DNA of 36,720 nucleotides from a virus. The notes under the pieces were generated by a model, which saw nothing but the letters and a program-made list of their open reading frames with translations, did no database searches and was not told where the DNA came from. Positions 11,012 through 35,381 of the stretch are shown here, piece after piece. Position 1 is the stretch's first letter. Each line of letters begins with the position of its first letter. The DNA is taken from positions 1 to 36,720 of the IMG/VR virus record IMGVR_UViG_3300029258_003252; one strand, written 5' to 3'. Made by a program: the position numbers and the translations under genes.

Positions 11012-12238
11012 CTAGTTCACTGACTCCAACTTGCTTGCCTTAATCCCATCAATGTTAGTCAACAGATTAAGTAAAGTAGAGGTTGAAATCTCCCTAGCCT
11101 TAAAATCCCTGTCGTCCACAGGTATTTGTTTCATTGCTTCTTGCTCAATGCAAAGTGCAGATTTAATGTCTCTATCGTTAACATATCCGCATTTGCATGA
11201 GTAAGTGCGTTCACTCAAAGTTAACTTTTGTTTACTTCCACAACTTGGACATAGTTGAGTTGAAGGAAAGAAGCGATCTACCATGATTGGTGTATGAGAT
11301 TTGTGCTTCAAATCTCCGATGATTCCACCAATACCAGTGTATTGCACCTTCTTTCCATGATTACCACTATGCCAAGCATGTATACTCTCGTCTTGGAAAC
11401 AAACATACTTAAAACAACGAATAATTGCGTTGACTATCTTATGGCGTATGTCGCTTCTTTTGTTTGTCAAACGCTCATACTCTTTTTGTCTTTTTCTTCT
11501 ATCTTGCTCTTTCTTTTTGCTTCTCGGTCTTCCTTTACGCATAATCCTACGATCAAGACGTTTGATACGCTTGCTCGTAGGAACTTGAAACTCAACCTTT
11601 GTTCCATCGCTGAATATCAATTGTGTTTCACATCCAAAATCAATGCCAATGCTTGTATTAGGGATTTCTACTTCTTGCTTGTCTTGGTAAGTTGTGACAT
11701 TGATATAAAAGTCTTGACCTTTACGCACAAGTGTAGCACAAGCAATGTCAGAGTTCTCAGGTATTTGCTCAATACCATTAACCTTCAACCATTTTTTTAG
11801 ACCTTGTACTCTTACTCTGTTCCCTTTGAGGAAAAATGTTTTATTGTATTGAACAAGTGGTATAGAATTTACTTCACTCTTAAATTTAAGTCGTCCTACT
11901 TTATATCCTTTTTCTTTTCTTGATTTCAACGAACGTAATGATCCCCAAAGCCTCGTTCTGATGCTTTGCTTCATTTGACCTTTGAGGACATTTAACTTTC
12001 TTGTCTCAAATTCATCACCTACTTTGACAGGAACTTCACGAACAGTAGTATCAATTTCATCTACAGCATCAAGAGCAAGGCAGTGATTGTAGAACCACTT
12101 GGCTTCTTTGAACATATTGGACAAATGATTGATTGCAAACTTGGAAAGGTGCGAGCGATCAATCTTCAACTCAAACACTTTGCAAGTTTGATTTTCTCTT
12201 TTTTGTCTTGTGAGTTTTCTGCTAGTAAATCTGTCCAC
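11012..12238 (-). CDS. tnpB: TnpB RNA-guided endonuclease
   Basis: 408 aa, the normal TnpB length. Domain order is an N-terminal wedge/REC region, RuvC-I with SIGIDFG (Asp200), RuvC-II with FQDESIHAW (Glu284), a zinc finger CPSCG … CKCG (330-350), and RuvC-III NDRD (354-357). All catalytic acids are present, so it should be an active RNA-guided DNA nuclease that cuts empty donor sites and maintains the element. Its AT-rich, A-heavy codon use differs somewhat from the neighbours, fitting a mobile origin. Confidence 0.95.
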   Translation of the reverse strand: MDRFTSRKLTRQKRENQTCKVFELKIDRSHLSKFAINHLSNMFKEAKWFYNHCLALDAVDEIDTTVREVPVKVGDEFETRKLNVLKGQMKQSIRTRLWGSLRSLKSRKEKGYKVGRLKFKSEVNSIPLVQYNKTFFLKGNRVRVQGLKKWLKVNGIEQIPENSDIACATLVRKGQDFYINVTTYQDKQEVEIPNTSIGIDFGCETQLIFSDGTKVEFQVPTSKRIKRLDRRIMRKGRPRSKKKEQDRRKRQKEYERLTNKRSDIRHKIVNAIIRCFKYVCFQDESIHAWHSGNHGKKVQYTGIGGIIGDLKHKSHTPIMVDRFFPSTQLCPSCGSKQKLTLSERTYSCKCGYVNDRDIKSALCIEQEAMKQIPVDDRDFKAREISTSTLLNLLTNIDGIKASKLESVN

Positions 12239-18798: not shown

Positions 18799-18805
18799 GA
18801 ACATA

Positions 18806-18892
18806 GCCGATGGGAGCCCCCGGAAACGACTGCTTATGGCTGCTACCTTTCGGCCCTGACCAGATTCACAAGTCTCCGTGACTCCCACCGAC
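18806..18892 (-). ncRNA. ffs: Signal recognition particle RNA (4.5S-like)
   Basis: About 87 nt. The apical domain reads GGTCAGGGCCGAAAGG then TAGCAGCCATAAGCAG, matching the universally conserved SRP domain IV (E. coli GGUCAGGUCCGGAAGG and AAGCAGCC), including the GNRA-type cap and the asymmetric loop. The outer stem GTCGGTGGGAGTC pairs with GGCTCCCATCGGC. It follows 1 nt after the CDS at 18894 and ends in its own terminator. The RNA binds Ffh to target membrane proteins. Its presence here is unusual for a phage. Confidence 0.85.
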
Positions 18893-31524: not shown

Positions 31525-31527
31525 AAG

Positions 31528-31620
31528 CTGTGGGGAGAGGGCTTGAACCTCCATACCGATTCTCATCGGAATACACGAAGTTAACAGCTTCGCCGCTTAC
31601 CAACATTAGCGTACCCCACA
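31528..31620 (-). tRNA. tRNA-Asn(GTT) with long variable arm
   Basis: Acceptor TGTGGGG/CCCCACA, anticodon arm CGAAG-CTGTTAA-CTTCG (GTT), T-arm GGAGG-TTCAAGC-CCTCT. The variable region is 23 nt with a 5-bp stem (CCGAT-GAGA-ATCGG). Asn tRNAs normally have a 4-5 nt variable loop. Confidence 0.85.
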
Positions 31621-32160
31621 TTAAATCAGGCCATATTGTCTAGCCCATTTTCTTACAGCATTATCGCTGACTTTGTATTTCCTTCCTATCGCACACCAAT
31701 TTCCTATTTCTTGAATCTCCCTTTTCAACTTTGCCTTAGAAGGACGCTCTGCCTTCCTTTGAAAAAGTCTGACACAAGAAACTGAACAAAACTTATACTT
31801 ATTTCCTGGTGGTGTAAATTCTTTCTTACATTGCGGACATTTCCGTTTGGTAACGACCTTTTTCTTTACTGCTTCCATTCTTAATTGTCGGCTTTCTTGT
31901 ATCAATTCATCGTGGGTTTCCGCATGACAATTTCTACAAAGCATATCGCACTTATCCACTTCCTTTTTCAACCTTTCATAACTCCAACTTTTCCCTCCAA
32001 TCGTGAAGTCCTTTTCCTCTGAATTTCGATGGTGAAATTCAAAAACAGAAGGAATCAATTTATCGTAGCCACACCTTTGGCATTTACCGCCTTTGTATTC
32101 AACAAGCTTTAATTTAGTTCTATTCCGCCAATTCATAACGGCTATTGATTTTCTATTCAT
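31621..32160 (-). CDS. HNH homing-type endonuclease
   Basis: 179 aa; GAGGAGAG lies 2-9 nt upstream of the ATG. HNH core: KCQRCG (C27/C30), EFHHRN (His 43-44), CDMLCRNCHAETH (C75, C78, H79, H83). A second Cys4 finger follows (CPQC … CSVSC) and a C-terminal HTH-like segment (GNWCAIGRKYKVSDNAVRKW). This layout is that of free-standing phage homing nucleases. Its stop codon touches the 5' end of tRNA-Asn. A paralog lies at 32528-33115. Confidence 0.85.
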   Translation of the reverse strand: MNRKSIAVMNWRNRTKLKLVEYKGGKCQRCGYDKLIPSVFEFHHRNSEEKDFTIGGKSWSYERLKKEVDKCDMLCRNCHAETHDELIQESRQLRMEAVKKKVVTKRKCPQCKKEFTPPGNKYKFCSVSCVRLFQRKAERPSKAKLKREIQEIGNWCAIGRKYKVSDNAVRKWARQYGLI

Positions 32161-32219
32161 TACTCTCCTCGATTAACTGAATTAGTTAATCTAAAAGAAT
32201 AATAATTCGAATTTTTCAA

Positions 32220-32291
32220 AGGCAGGCTTGGGAATCGGACCCAACTTTCGCACGTTAACAGCGTGCCGCATCACCAGTTTGCTTGCCTGCC
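32220..32291 (-). tRNA. tRNA-Asn(GTT), class I
   Basis: Acceptor GGCAGGC/GCCTGCC, anticodon arm GCACG-CTGTTAA-CGTGC (GTT), T-arm TTGGG-TCCGATT-CCCAA (T54 kept, C55 instead of T). Third Asn(GTT) in the window. Confidence 0.8.
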
Positions 32292-32292
32292 G

Positions 32293-32362
32293 CAAGCCCG
32301 CCAGGATTCGAACCCGATTCATCTGGGTTGGAGCCAGAGACCTCTCCCAGGAGGACGGACTT
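32293..32362 (-). tRNA. tRNA-Trp(CCA)
   Basis: Acceptor AAGTCCG/CGGGCTT, discriminator G, anticodon arm TCTGG-CTCCAAC-CCAGA (CCA), T-loop TTCGAAT. Confidence 0.8.
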
Positions 32363-32368
32363 GTAAAG

Positions 32369-32442
32369 TGGTAGTTCCGAGAGTCGAACTCGGCTCAGAA
32401 TCCTTATCAGGGATTCCAGGGCATACCGGCCCGTCAACTACC
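32369..32442 (-). tRNA. tRNA-Ile(GAT)
   Basis: Acceptor GGTAGTT/AACTACC, anticodon arm AATCC-CTGATAA-GGATT (GAT), T-arm CCGAG-TTCGACT-CTCGG. Confidence 0.9.
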
Positions 32443-32445
32443 AAA

Positions 32446-32534
32446 GGGGGCAAGACGGGGATCGAACCCGCACGGTCGCAATGACCTCCTGATTCACAGT
32501 CAGGCTCGGCTAACCAGTATCCGACTCCTACCCC
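32446..32534 (-). tRNA. tRNA-His(GTG) with long variable arm
   Basis: 8-bp acceptor GGGGTAGG/CTTGCCCC as in His tRNAs with G-1, anticodon arm CCTGA-CTGTGAA-TCAGG (GTG), T-arm GCGGG-TTCGATC-CCCGT. The variable region is 16 nt and folds as GGTC-ATTGC-GACC, which His tRNAs normally lack. The 5' end overlaps the HNH stop codon. Confidence 0.8.
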
Positions 32535-33115
32535 ATATTAGCTCGCTTTTTTGCCCAGTAACCTCTTCTGGGTTCTAATTTTATGCCAAGCGATTTACAT
32601 CTTTTTTTTACAGCATTACCCGTTACGCCAAACATTTCTCCTATTTTCTCATAGGGCTTTTCTGTAATTAGCTTTTCCATTTCCTTTTTTGTAACATGAA
32701 ACTTCCTGGAGGATGTTGCCGCACATGCGACCGAACAATACTTATGCAATTTATATTTCTCTTCACCACACACAGGACATTTATCAAATTCCTTTTTTCT
32801 TAATTTGATAACATCAGCATACTCCTCATTAAAACGTGCATAATTCTTTGGTAGTTTCGTCACCCCCGCATGAATTTCTCTATGGCATCGACAACAAACA
32901 ATTGTGCATTTTCTTGCCTCCTCGACTATTTTTGACCATGCATAACCATTACGCATAGCTTTATGAAGAGCATGATCTTTTTCGCCAGGATCGACATGAT
33001 GGTAATCTAACGCCGCTATGGTTTTGGAGTAACCACAAATTGTGCATTTTCCACCAAATGCCGCCGCTAAATTTTCTCGGGCTTTTTGCCTCCAAGTTTT
33101 CTTTCTGTCTATCAT
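32528..33115 (-). CDS. HNH homing-type endonuclease (paralog)
   Basis: 195 aa from the ATG at 33115 (MIDRKKTWRQK), GAGG 6 nt upstream. KCTICGYSK, DYHHVDPGEKDHALHK and CCRCHREIH form the HNH site; CPVCGEEKY … CSVACA is the second finger; the C-terminus KIGEMFGVTGNAVKKRCKSLG is an HTH. Same architecture as the gene at 31621. It runs 7 nt into tRNA-His. Confidence 0.85.
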   Translation of the reverse strand: MIDRKKTWRQKARENLAAAFGGKCTICGYSKTIAALDYHHVDPGEKDHALHKAMRNGYAWSKIVEEARKCTIVCCRCHREIHAGVTKLPKNYARFNEEYADVIKLRKKEFDKCPVCGEEKYKLHKYCSVACAATSSRKFHVTKKEMEKLITEKPYEKIGEMFGVTGNAVKKRCKSLGIKLEPRRGYWAKKRANMG

Positions 33116-33183
33116 TTGAACCTCTTTAGTTGTTATGGCATGATGTGCCATAATTAACTTAGTAAGGCTCAAACAAATTTTAG

Positions 33184-33251
33184 AGCAGCCACGGAGAATT
33201 GAACTCCGATCTCCAGTATGGCAAACTGACGTACTACCATTGTACGCTGCC
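33184..33251 (-). tRNA. tRNA-Gly(GCC)
   Basis: Acceptor about 6 bp (GGCAGC/GCTGCT region), D-arm GTAC-AATGGTA-GTAC, anticodon loop TTGCCAT (GCC), T-arm CGGAG-TTCAATT-CTCCG. A mismatch at the base of the acceptor. Confidence 0.75.
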
Positions 33252-33262
33252 TGAGGCTATTT

Positions 33263-33281
33263 AACCAAATTGTCAAAGAAC
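33263..33281 (-). promoter_or_regulatory. boxA-like antitermination site
   Basis: Minus strand AGTTCTTTGACAATTTGG, a near copy of the site before the RNA array, 12 nt upstream of tRNA-Gly(GCC). Same NusB-S10 boxA resemblance. Confidence 0.5.
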
Positions 33282-33395
33282 TACCGCAACGATTTTCCCT
33301 TTACCACGAAGAAACTTCAAAGCCTCTTCATAGGAACAATCGCCTTCTTTCAATACCCAAGTTTCCTCGGGCGAAATTGCCATTAAATACCACAT
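33273..33395 (-). CDS. Small protein between tRNAs
   Basis: 40 aa. MWYLMAISPEETWVLKEGDC and SYEEALKFLRGKGKIVAVVL; an internal Met at residue 5 is an alternative start. Protein-like composition (strand, helix, strand). It fills the gap between tRNA-Thr and tRNA-Gly and its end overlaps the boxA-like site. Confidence 0.5.
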   Translation of the reverse strand: MWYLMAISPEETWVLKEGDCSYEEALKFLRGKGKIVAVVL

Positions 33396-33398
33396 AAG

Positions 33399-33472
33399 AG
33401 CTAGCGGAGGGAGTCGAACCCAATCTTAATCTTGTTTACAGGACAAGTGCATAACCGTTCTGCCACGCTAGC
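33399..33472 (-). tRNA. tRNA-Thr(TGT) with C33
   Basis: Acceptor GCTAGCG/CGCTAGC, anticodon arm CTTGT-CCTGTAA-ACAAG (TGT), T-loop TTCGACT. Position 33 is C where almost all tRNAs have U; Y1 shows the same change. Confidence 0.8.
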
Positions 33473-34031
33473 ATTCTCCAGCTTCCTCAAGAAGCTTCTT
33501 CGCCTTTTCTATCTCTTTCGCCTTCTTAGTTTCCTTTCTCTTTTTAGCGGCTTCGGCCCTTCTCTTCTTTTCGGCCCCCAACCTCTTCACTTCCTTATCG
33601 TAAGCCGCCCTTTGTTCCTTCGTCATCAATTTCTTCAACGAGGTCTTTGTGACTTCCTGGGCGATCCTGATGCCCTCTTTCGCCAAACAACCGGCATCCA
33701 TAGTATCCAAATCAAACTCAACCATTCTGCCGTAAGAATTGTCCTTATCACAGTAGAAAAACTTCTTCCCCGCCACCAGCCTCTTTTCTCTATCCTCTAT
33801 ACTCGTCAAGTTCACCCATCCCAAATTCTTCAAAGCCTGGATCGCTTCTCGGTCACCGTTCTTGACCATCGAAACCAAGACATTGACAAGATCCTGCTTC
33901 AAAGCATAGTTTGCCGTTTGGGCGAGGCCACCCAGACTTATGTCCTGAATAGTTAAAGTGGGTTCACAAGAACATTCGTCATAGCACCTACAATCGTCCT
34001 CAGCCTGTACTAAAATCAACTTGTAACTCAT
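33468..34031 (-). CDS. Hypothetical protein with basic coiled-coil tail
   Basis: 187 aa from the ATG at 34031 (MSYKLILVQAEDDCRCYDEC). Cys-rich start (CRCYDECSCEP), a middle alpha/beta region, and a Lys/Arg/Ala coiled-coil end (KRRAEAAKKRKETKKAKEIE). Its stop lies inside the first bases of tRNA-Thr. Possibly nucleic-acid binding; unproven. Confidence 0.6.
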   Translation of the reverse strand: MSYKLILVQAEDDCRCYDECSCEPTLTIQDISLGGLAQTANYALKQDLVNVLVSMVKNGDREAIQALKNLGWVNLTSIEDREKRLVAGKKFFYCDKDNSYGRMVEFDLDTMDAGCLAKEGIRIAQEVTKTSLKKLMTKEQRAAYDKEVKRLGAEKKRRAEAAKKRKETKKAKEIEKAKKLLEEAGEC

Positions 34032-34048
34032 GATTTCGTTCCTTTCAG

Positions 34049-34129
34049 AGACAGCGGGCGGATTCGAACCGCATGACCACTGATTTTGCAAACCAGCCCC
34101 TTCACCATCAGGGATTAGGTTCCACTGTC
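34049..34129 (-). tRNA. tRNA-Cys(GCA)
   Basis: Acceptor GACAGTG/CGCTGTC, anticodon arm CTGGT-TTGCAAA-ATCAG (GCA), T-arm TGCGG-TTCGAAT-CCGCC. The D region is longer than usual (D-stem CCT/AGG with a 15-nt loop, or CCC/GGG). Confidence 0.8.
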
Positions 34130-34136
34130 AAAGAGC
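34124..34136 (-). promoter_or_regulatory. boxA-like sequence between two tRNAs
   Basis: Minus strand TGCTCTTTGACAG spans the 3' end of tRNA-Gly(TCC) and the 5' end of tRNA-Cys. It matches the boxA core but is made largely of tRNA sequence, so it may be coincidental. Confidence 0.3.
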
Positions 34137-34207
34137 AGACGATGGGATTTGAACCCACAACCATCAGATTGGAAATCTGAGACTCTGCCAATTGAGTTAC
34201 GTCTGCT
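34133..34207 (-). tRNA. tRNA-Gly(TCC)
   Basis: Acceptor AGCAGAC/GTCTGCT, anticodon arm TCAGA-TTTCCAA-TCTGA (TCC), T-arm GTGGG-TTCAAAT-CCCAT. Confidence 0.9.
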
Positions 34208-34422
34208 TATTCATATTCATAAAATCCCATTGCCTCCGATTCATGAACTAATTCTTCCTGACAATATTCCTGCAATTCCCTCAGAGCCTCCCTCGCCAGA
34301 TCAGACTGATCTTTTTCAAAACAACAACATTCGGAAACCGAAGCCGAAGAATTACATCCTTCAACATGACCGAAGTCACGAATCTGTTCTAGCAAATAAA
34401 AGACTTTTTCAAGGTGGCTCAT
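34207..34422 (-). CDS. Small acidic protein with Cys cluster
   Basis: 71 aa, MSHLEKVFYLLEQIRDFGH…, with SECCCFEKDQ in the middle and an acidic end. Start overlaps the upstream stop and the stop codon touches tRNA-Gly. No family. Confidence 0.6.
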   Translation of the reverse strand: MSHLEKVFYLLEQIRDFGHVEGCNSSASVSECCCFEKDQSDLAREALRELQEYCQEELVHESEAMGFYEYE

Positions 34423-34601
34423 TTTAGCTTCTCTATTTCTTCCTTTAGGCTTTTTATCCAGCGTTTTGGCCTTGACTCTTTTAACCCAGCAAGATGCAAA
34501 AGTCGCTCTTTTTTTTCGGGATCAGGGTCGTAGTGTAATTCCCTTCCCCTTTGATATTCTCTCAAATGCCTTACTTTAGCGTCTTTTTCTTTTTCGTTCA
34601 T
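34419..34601 (-). CDS. Small charged helical protein
   Basis: 60 aa from the ATG at 34601 (MNEKEKDAKVRHLREYQRGR) with GGGAGG 5 nt upstream. Highly charged and helical. It follows tRNA-Lys(CTT) directly. No family. Confidence 0.6.
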   Translation of the reverse strand: MNEKEKDAKVRHLREYQRGRELHYDPDPEKKERLLHLAGLKESRPKRWIKSLKEEIEKLK

Positions 34602-34613
34602 TTGCCTCCCAAG

Positions 34614-34696
34614 TAGGGCCGAGAGGAATCGAACCTCCATTGCGGTTTCCCGCCCGGATTAAGAATCCGGTGCATTACCTTGTCTGCCACGACCCC
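34614..34696 (-). tRNA. tRNA-Lys(CTT) with long variable arm
   Basis: Acceptor GGGGTCG/CGGCCCT, anticodon arm CCGGA-TTCTTAA-TCCGG (CTT), T-arm GGAGG-TTCGATT-CCTCT. The variable region (15 nt) forms GCGG-GAAA-CCGC, abnormal for Lys. Confidence 0.85.
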
Positions 34697-35079: not shown

Positions 35080-35104
35080 TTTCCTCACAATTTGTCATTT
35101 CTAG

Positions 35105-35377
35105 TGACCCCTGTGGAACTCGAATCCATAACCTTCGGATTAACGTGCCAACTACAGCTTTCGCTGCCCTTTCGGTTTGTGGCCTGGACTTTCCCTTAAC
35201 CCTCGTCTTTACGTTAGGGTTCCGCCTGTCAAGTCTCTACACCTTCCTGTTTCCAGGCTTGGCTCGGGATTGCCATTTTACAGGGTTCCCCGAATTTAAG
35301 CGGTTCTACTTTTTGGGTTTCCCCAAAAGCACTCCTATTCGAAGTCCGATGCTCTAACCAAATTGAGCTAAGGGGTC
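35105..35377 (-). tRNA. tRNA-Lys(TTT) interrupted by a group I intron
   Basis: 5' exon (36 nt): acceptor GACCCCT, D-arm GCTC..GAGC, TCGGA-CTT. 3' exon: TTAA-TCCGA, variable AGGT, T-loop TTCGAGT, AGGGGTC, discriminator A. The spliced anticodon loop is CTTTTAA (TTT), so the intron lies inside the anticodon between U34 and U35. Confidence 0.85.
35144..35341 (-). ncRNA. Group I self-splicing intron (198 nt)
   Basis: Shows the conserved P/Q pair (AATGGCAATCCCGAGCCAAG), the R region (GGTGTAGAGACTTGACAGGC) and S (AAGGGAAAGTCCAGGCC), plus an internal guide GAGT that pairs with exon ACTT giving the U·G at the 5' site, and a terminal omega-G. It resembles the small IC3 introns of bacterial tRNA-Leu/Arg genes. 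No endonuclease gene inside. Confidence 0.85.
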
Positions 35378-35381
35378 CGAA

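Follow-up and report, generated by a model that had tools for sequence, protein, structure and literature searches.

The window analysed in this work, that is, the whole stretch of 36,720 nt, was a fragment without end repeats from the IMG/VR virus record IMGVR_UViG_3300029258_003252 (G000 in the comparisons below). Thirteen tRNAs were called in it by ARAGORN, all of them on the minus strand, and three of these, of the Asn, His and Lys isotypes, carried an additional hairpin in the variable region, which joins the anticodon stem to the T stem. The features concerned were the following:

31527..31620, minus strand: long-armed tRNA-Asn(GUU) (ARAGORN, Rfam 45.9 bits, fold, 18-member family)
31553..31575, minus strand: variable arm of this tRNA-Asn, GUA-NN-stem-loop-stem-UAU, 23 nt (alignment, pair counts, position from the sequence)
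32220..32291, minus strand: second tRNA-Asn(GUU) of the same array, with an ordinary short variable loop (ARAGORN)
32446..32534, minus strand: long-armed tRNA-His(GUG), G-1:C73 encoded (ARAGORN, sequence; Rfam tRNA 22.9 bits); the ARAGORN call was 32446-32532, and the end at 32534 includes the encoded G-1
32472..32487, minus strand: variable arm of tRNA-His, A-GGUC-AUUGC-GACC-GU, 16 nt (ARAGORN; 15 of 16 nt identical in G001)
34613..34696, minus strand: long-armed tRNA-Lys(CUU) (ARAGORN, Rfam 54.0 bits, fold)
34639..34653, minus strand: variable arm of tRNA-Lys, GCGG-GAAA-CCGC-AAU, 15 nt (identical in G003; 5 nt instead in G001)
28371-28440, 33184-33250 and about 34049-34124: further tRNA-like genes

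Textbooks assign a long variable arm to three bacterial isotypes, in which it is used by synthetases to distinguish tRNAs. The preliminary description of this DNA, according to which only Leu, Ser and Tyr tRNAs of bacteria normally have such an arm, was right in this respect, although tRNA-Sec is a fourth. The arms of 23, 16 and 15 nt with a hairpin that it had reported on tRNA-Asn, tRNA-His and tRNA-Lys were also recovered, since all three genes were called by ARAGORN at coordinates agreeing within 1-2 bases. The hairpin sequences in the variable region were (U)GUAUUCCGAUGAGAAUCGGUAU for Asn, AGGUCAUUGCGACCGU for His, where the region measured 16-17 nt, and GCGGGAAACCGCAAU for Lys. A variable region of at least 10 nt with a stem, as in class II tRNAs, was thus present in all three, but none had a class II isotype (Leu, Ser or Tyr): the anticodons were GUU, GUG and CUU, and the discriminator base N73 was the cognate one.

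Single-strand folding yielded the cloverleaf plus the extra hairpin for tRNA-Asn (z -2.6) and tRNA-Lys (z -2.7), and the better fold without the extra stem for which the preliminary description had allowed was not obtained for these two; the hairpin also formed in tRNA-His, but there the minimum was not a cloverleaf (z -1.4). The scores against Rfam divided the genes in the same way, Lys and Asn scoring above the tRNA gathering score of 29 and His below it. The tRNA-Sec model fitted the His gene better (29.1) than the tRNA model, still below the tRNA-Sec cut-off. When only the variable region was shuffled, an equally good hairpin appeared in 1.8% of the shuffles for Asn, 13% for His and 0.1% for Lys. 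The His fold is the weakest of the three, and the case for its arm rests on conservation in a relative because of the 13% of shuffles that match its hairpin. It is the low score and the fold of this gene that would speak for artefacts or pseudogenes; nevertheless, the covariation, the conservation in independent contigs and the occurrence of the same feature in isolate genomes make that explanation extremely improbable.

The covariation came from at least 18 phage tRNA-Asn of the window type, which shared the arm given above. Compensatory changes were observed at each of the three upper arm pairs, where 77% of the cells were paired in an alignment built without structural information. For the tRNA-Asn structure as a whole, the covariation score was 0.77, compared with 0.10-0.16 when the partners were slid. 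The acceptor, D, anticodon and T stems covaried as well; the GUU anticodon, the U1-A72 pair and G73 were invariant, and the arm base GUA...UAU was nearly so. In this family GUA may alternatively pair with UAU, which would leave no 3' gap and give a more Ser-like arm. The Asn arm is supported by covariation across these 18 tRNAs and, together with the His arm, is conserved in G001; hence, the idea that the arms are remnants of inserted modules, raised in the preliminary description, found no support.

Three larger contigs were compared with the window. A conserved protein (25820-27352) led to the 84.5-kb contig G001 (73% identity) and the 390-kb contig G002 (63%), and the window protein at 33468-34046 led to the 527-kb contig G003. 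These sequence matches relate the window fragment to phages as large as 527 kb. Megablast with 25-36.7 kb of the window revealed no close relative among deposited phages, and blastn with the three long-armed tRNAs returned two weak matches. The tRNA order of G001 largely equalled that of the window and included the long-armed Asn and His genes. An RtcB RNA-repair ligase was encoded in G003 and a T4-Rnl1-like RNA-repair ligase in G002; as to cognate phage synthetases, no match to the class II Asp/Lys/Asn synthetase family above the cut-off was found in G000-G003, with one sub-threshold match in G002.

A clear difference was observed for tRNA-Lys(CUU). The gene at the same place in G001 had a 5-nt variable loop and no arm, and its first 26 and last 25 nt were identical to those of the window gene, so the two genes differ only within the anticodon arm, the variable region and the beginning of the T stem. 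The 15-nt arm of the window was found unchanged in G003, which carried further long-armed tRNAs (Asn, Lys(UUU), Cys and Glu(UUC)) and whose Leu, Ser and Tyr tRNAs formed a cluster separate from these. In G002, a long-armed Lys(CUU) lay next to a short Lys(CUU). The comparison of the Lys, Asn and His genes of G000-G003 thus shows that arms are acquired, dropped or swapped and that the remainder of the tRNA stays. Such gain and loss at one locus, with Lys long in G000 and G003 and short in G001, is in line with the main rival explanation, according to which these are cognate tRNAs whose hairpin grew by drift or recombination and does nothing, since phage tRNA copies are redundant and purifying selection on their length would be weak. 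Two further observations favour it: the tRNA-Thr slot in the T5 genus was short in T5 and long-armed in APCEc03, with flanking proteins 80-82% identical, and a short tRNA-Asn(GUU) coexisted with the long-armed one in the window, G001, G003 and phiKZ. We regard neutrality of this kind as a serious possibility, though short of probable; the covariation of the Asn arm across 18 diverse phages and its nearly invariant GUA...UAU base count against it.

Two HNH endonuclease genes lay next to the long-armed tRNAs of the window:

31621-32160, minus strand: HNH endonuclease gene directly 5' of the long-armed tRNA-Asn
32528-33172, minus strand: HNH endonuclease gene directly 5' of the long-armed tRNA-His

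The arms were considered as scars of these genes, and this was rejected, as both arms are present in G001, where the next upstream tRNA follows after just 2-8 nt and no HNH gene lies in between.

The survey of extra-arm tRNAs in phages that had been proposed brought others to light, including phiKZ (Asn) and T5-like coliphages (Thr). With patterns that favour tRNAs with GGTA and GGTTCRANTCC, long spacers were found in viral contigs in 34 Lys stretches and at least 120 Asn stretches, and most of the Asn loci were called by ARAGORN as long-armed tRNA-Asn. When the spacer was left unbiased (12-34), 5 of 81 viral Asn(GUU) matches (about 6%) were long; for viral Lys, 5 of 83 matches had a spacer of at least 21, not all of them confirmed as Lys by ARAGORN. 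Applied to 398 Pseudomonadota genomes, the pattern for long Asn hit the chosen centre, a Massilia genome whose long-armed Asn lies on another contig than its three Asn genes with a short loop, as well as one sequence that by eye does not read as tRNA-Asn. The pattern search thus detected a long-armed tRNA-Asn in 0 of the 397 Pseudomonadota genomes besides the chosen centre, whereas the short form matched 47 of 60. The long-armed Asn is strongly enriched in viruses relative to bacterial genomes and looks like a phage adaptation. Additionally, 101 records matched at least 80% of a long-armed T5-like tRNA-Thr query, of which APCEc03 was checked. Many of the genome-contig matches were archaeal tRNAs, which by eye appear to contain introns and were excluded from the arm counts.

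Grouped by position 36, arms occurred in 41 of 954 tRNAs with A or U and in 7 of 606 with G or C (p = 0.0003; 0.014 without Ile(UAU)), a split that is exploratory, chosen after the data had been seen, and drawn from non-independent sequences at loci selected with patterns for Asn, Lys and Arg. The excess with A or U is a lead only; as a difference in arm rate between isotypes, it would count against neutral growth. Separately, 13 of 51 tRNA-Ile(UAU) in the broad scans were long-armed (loci L110, L127, L136, L260, L262, L478, L537, L563, L586, L605, L621, L623 and L630), with an arm of 19-26 nt and a conserved loop motif (C/U)AGAU.

The long-armed tRNAs of the survey kept the cognate N73, with G in 84 of 87 Asn, A in 11 of 13 Lys and U in all 7 Cys. 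Likewise, the window tRNA-Lys combined its CUU anticodon with A73 and the window tRNA-His its GUG anticodon with G-1:C73, while the tRNA-His of G001 had C73 but U at -1. Most non-canonical arms left 3-4 unpaired nt before the T stem, compared with 1 in Ser, 1-2 in Leu and about 3 in Tyr; the geometry is Tyr-like and not unique, because Tyr also leaves 3 nt on the 3' side. These features bear on an identity switch, in which the arm would recruit SerRS, LeuRS or TyrRS and another amino acid would be inserted at Asn, His or Lys codons, on the model of the nematode nev-tRNAs. SerRS recognizes a long arm together with G73 (PMC7609411), and tRNA-Asn has G73. Nevertheless, the invariant U1-A72 of the Asn family, A73 in Lys, U73 in Cys, C73 with G-1 in His and, Tyr aside, the longer 3' junction make such a switch very unlikely. 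The altered synthetase recognition suggested in the preliminary description, in the sense of charging by these three enzymes, is accordingly disfavoured by the cognate discriminators and terminal pairs. The Asn, His and Lys genes are, on their sequence, most likely genuine cognate tRNAs rather than mischarged Ser, Leu or Tyr tRNAs or debris.

As to a possible origin of the arms from class II tRNAs, with the variable region masked the nearest neighbours were class I in 122 of 157 cases, neighbour isotype being unreliable according to the controls. Compared with sets matched in size, the arm sequences pointed to no particular class II isotype as their source, which is a further point on the side of neutral growth. 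The stretch GUCAUUGCGAC was common to the His arm of the window and T5 tRNA-Tyr, a lead at the level of coincidence and possibly due to chance.

Other RNA-related features lay nearby. The protein at 25820-27352 (minus strand; 63-73% identity to G002 and G001), which combines helical repeats with a VWA domain (DKSSSM), gave Ro60/TROVE structures as its 13 best Foldseek matches (E 1e-8 to 5e-6), at a TM of about 0.3 and from a query model with a pLDDT of only 54, as well as two weak PDB profile matches, both to TROVE proteins (E 0.18), and no match to the Pfam TROVE profile. By its predicted structure it matches Ro60/Rsr and is termed Ro60-like here. A conserved RNA element adjoins this gene in the window (27700-29120, minus strand), G001 (about 46-49 kb) and G002 (about 20-24 kb), with the consensus RACUYGGAC-stem-GNAA-stem-GUCCCCUAC...GCUUACAAAC and no matching Rfam family. 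In tRNAs that are complete apart from it, the element is found within the D-loop, immediately ahead of G18-G19; alternatively, it is permuted around tRNA-like bodies:

28991-29120, minus strand: element-bearing tRNA-Phe
28471-28610, minus strand: element-bearing tRNA-Arg(UCU)
27852-27974, minus strand: element-bearing tRNA-Asn(GUU)
27751, minus strand: element permuted around an Asn(AUU) tRNA-like body
28371, minus strand: element permuted around a Ser(UGA) tRNA-like body

The element may be a Y-RNA module that has been fused with tRNAs or, alternatively, an intron or processing element of a new kind, and is perhaps more novel than the arms. Its presence, with the Ro60-like gene, a few kb from the long-armed tRNAs raises a non-translational role, as ligands of a phage ribonucleoprotein, for example the Ro60-like protein, or as decoys for tRNA-cutting enzymes, the latter having been proposed for phage tRNA-Tyr (PMC13096335). 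We consider such roles unlikely, given that the Ro-associated element is absent from the long-armed tRNAs, which retain the anticodon loops, discriminators and stems of tRNAs used in translation.

The Ser(UGA) gene at 28371-28440 (minus strand) had a short variable loop, the reverse of the long-arm finding. The window also contained a tRNA split by a group I intron (35104-35380, minus strand; Rfam 57.9 bits), for which joining after U34 would give the anticodon UUU (Lys), a match to the small bacterial SRP RNA (18803-18892, minus strand; 49.9 bits) and a TnpB/IS605 OrfB-like protein with a Cas12f1-like domain (11012-12238, minus strand).

The reading that we prefer, tentatively and by analogy, is that these are genuine, isotype-true phage tRNAs with an added hairpin, kept as a poor substrate for host tRNA-cutting defences. 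The long-armed tRNAs would be transcribed and processed, would receive their amino acids from the AsnRS, HisRS and LysRS of the host, each acting on its cognate tRNA, and would decode normally; to our knowledge, none of these enzymes requires a short variable loop. The arm may then, with less certainty, hide the phage tRNA from defence nucleases, in analogy with T5 tRNA-Tyr, and after the host tRNAs had been cut the phage would still translate Asn, His and Lys codons. The RtcB and T4-Rnl1-like ligases fit phages facing tRNA damage. Counting against this shield, the Lys arm is absent at the same place in G001 and is dispensable there for that reason, the His gene falls under the Rfam cut-off, and long arms also sit on isotypes for which we know of no nuclease. 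Neutral growth explains the pattern of presence and absence almost as well, and both are rated nearly equal. It is also possible, though we lean against it, that a structural class of tRNAs, in which class I isotypes received a hairpin in the variable region, evolved repeatedly in phages to protect in general against bacterial immunity that cuts tRNAs; this class would extend across the isotypes Asn, Lys, Thr, Met, Cys, His, Glu and Ile(UAU) in many phages, including phiKZ and T5 relatives.

If phages routinely arm other isotypes and those tRNAs work, they would provide a natural test of tRNA identity rules, and a protective effect of the arm against tRNA-cutting defences, should there be one, would give a testable answer to why phages carry tRNAs of their own. 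Since examples already exist in model phages (phiKZ, T5 relatives), experiments are within reach.

The arms share with class II tRNAs a hairpin in the variable region and differ in isotype and discriminator, in a 3' junction longer than that of Ser and Leu, and in having no sequence link to any class II isotype; tRNA-Tyr, like most of the non-canonical arms, has a stem of 3-4 bp that is preceded by 1 nt and followed by about 3 nt. The nematode nev-tRNAs, which are eukaryotic, also combine a long variable arm with a non-class-II anticodon, but they are charged with leucine in vitro, whereas the phage discriminators are cognate. The phiKZ tRNA-Asn (AF399011, 269557-269645) is likewise a long-armed Asn(GUU) with G73, accompanied by a short tRNA-Asn elsewhere in its genome; its arm is GGC-GAAA-GCC instead of GUA...UAU, and it was deposited plainly as tRNA-Asn. 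Allo-tRNAs and selC-type tRNA-Cys likewise bear a long variable arm on unusual isotypes (PMC7609411) but have tRNA-Sec-like longer acceptor and anticodon stems, unlike the 7/5 acceptor/T stems found here for Asn and Lys. Cleavage of tRNA-Tyr by retron-Eco7 and by Septu takes place in its variable region (PMC11555353, PMC13096335), and T5 tRNA-Tyr has been reported to escape retron-Eco7 through its distinctive variable loop (PMC13096335). T5 tRNA-Tyr is a canonical class II isotype, whereas the arms of the window are on Asn, His and Lys, for which resistance would follow by analogy. The anticodon nucleases invoked in the preliminary description are a plausible counterpart and belong to the reading preferred here, the nearest published precedent being the variable loop and not the anticodon; that phage tRNAs counter tRNA-cutting defences was also argued by van den Berg et al. 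from anticodon-loop mutations (PMC10264068). In our literature search, which covered few subscription papers, no published description of such arms on phage Asn, His or Lys tRNAs was found. The arms seem to be an overlooked variant rather than a wholly new molecule, because the genomes of phiKZ and of T5-like phages have been publicly available for a long time, with these genes annotated simply as tRNA-Asn or tRNA-Thr.
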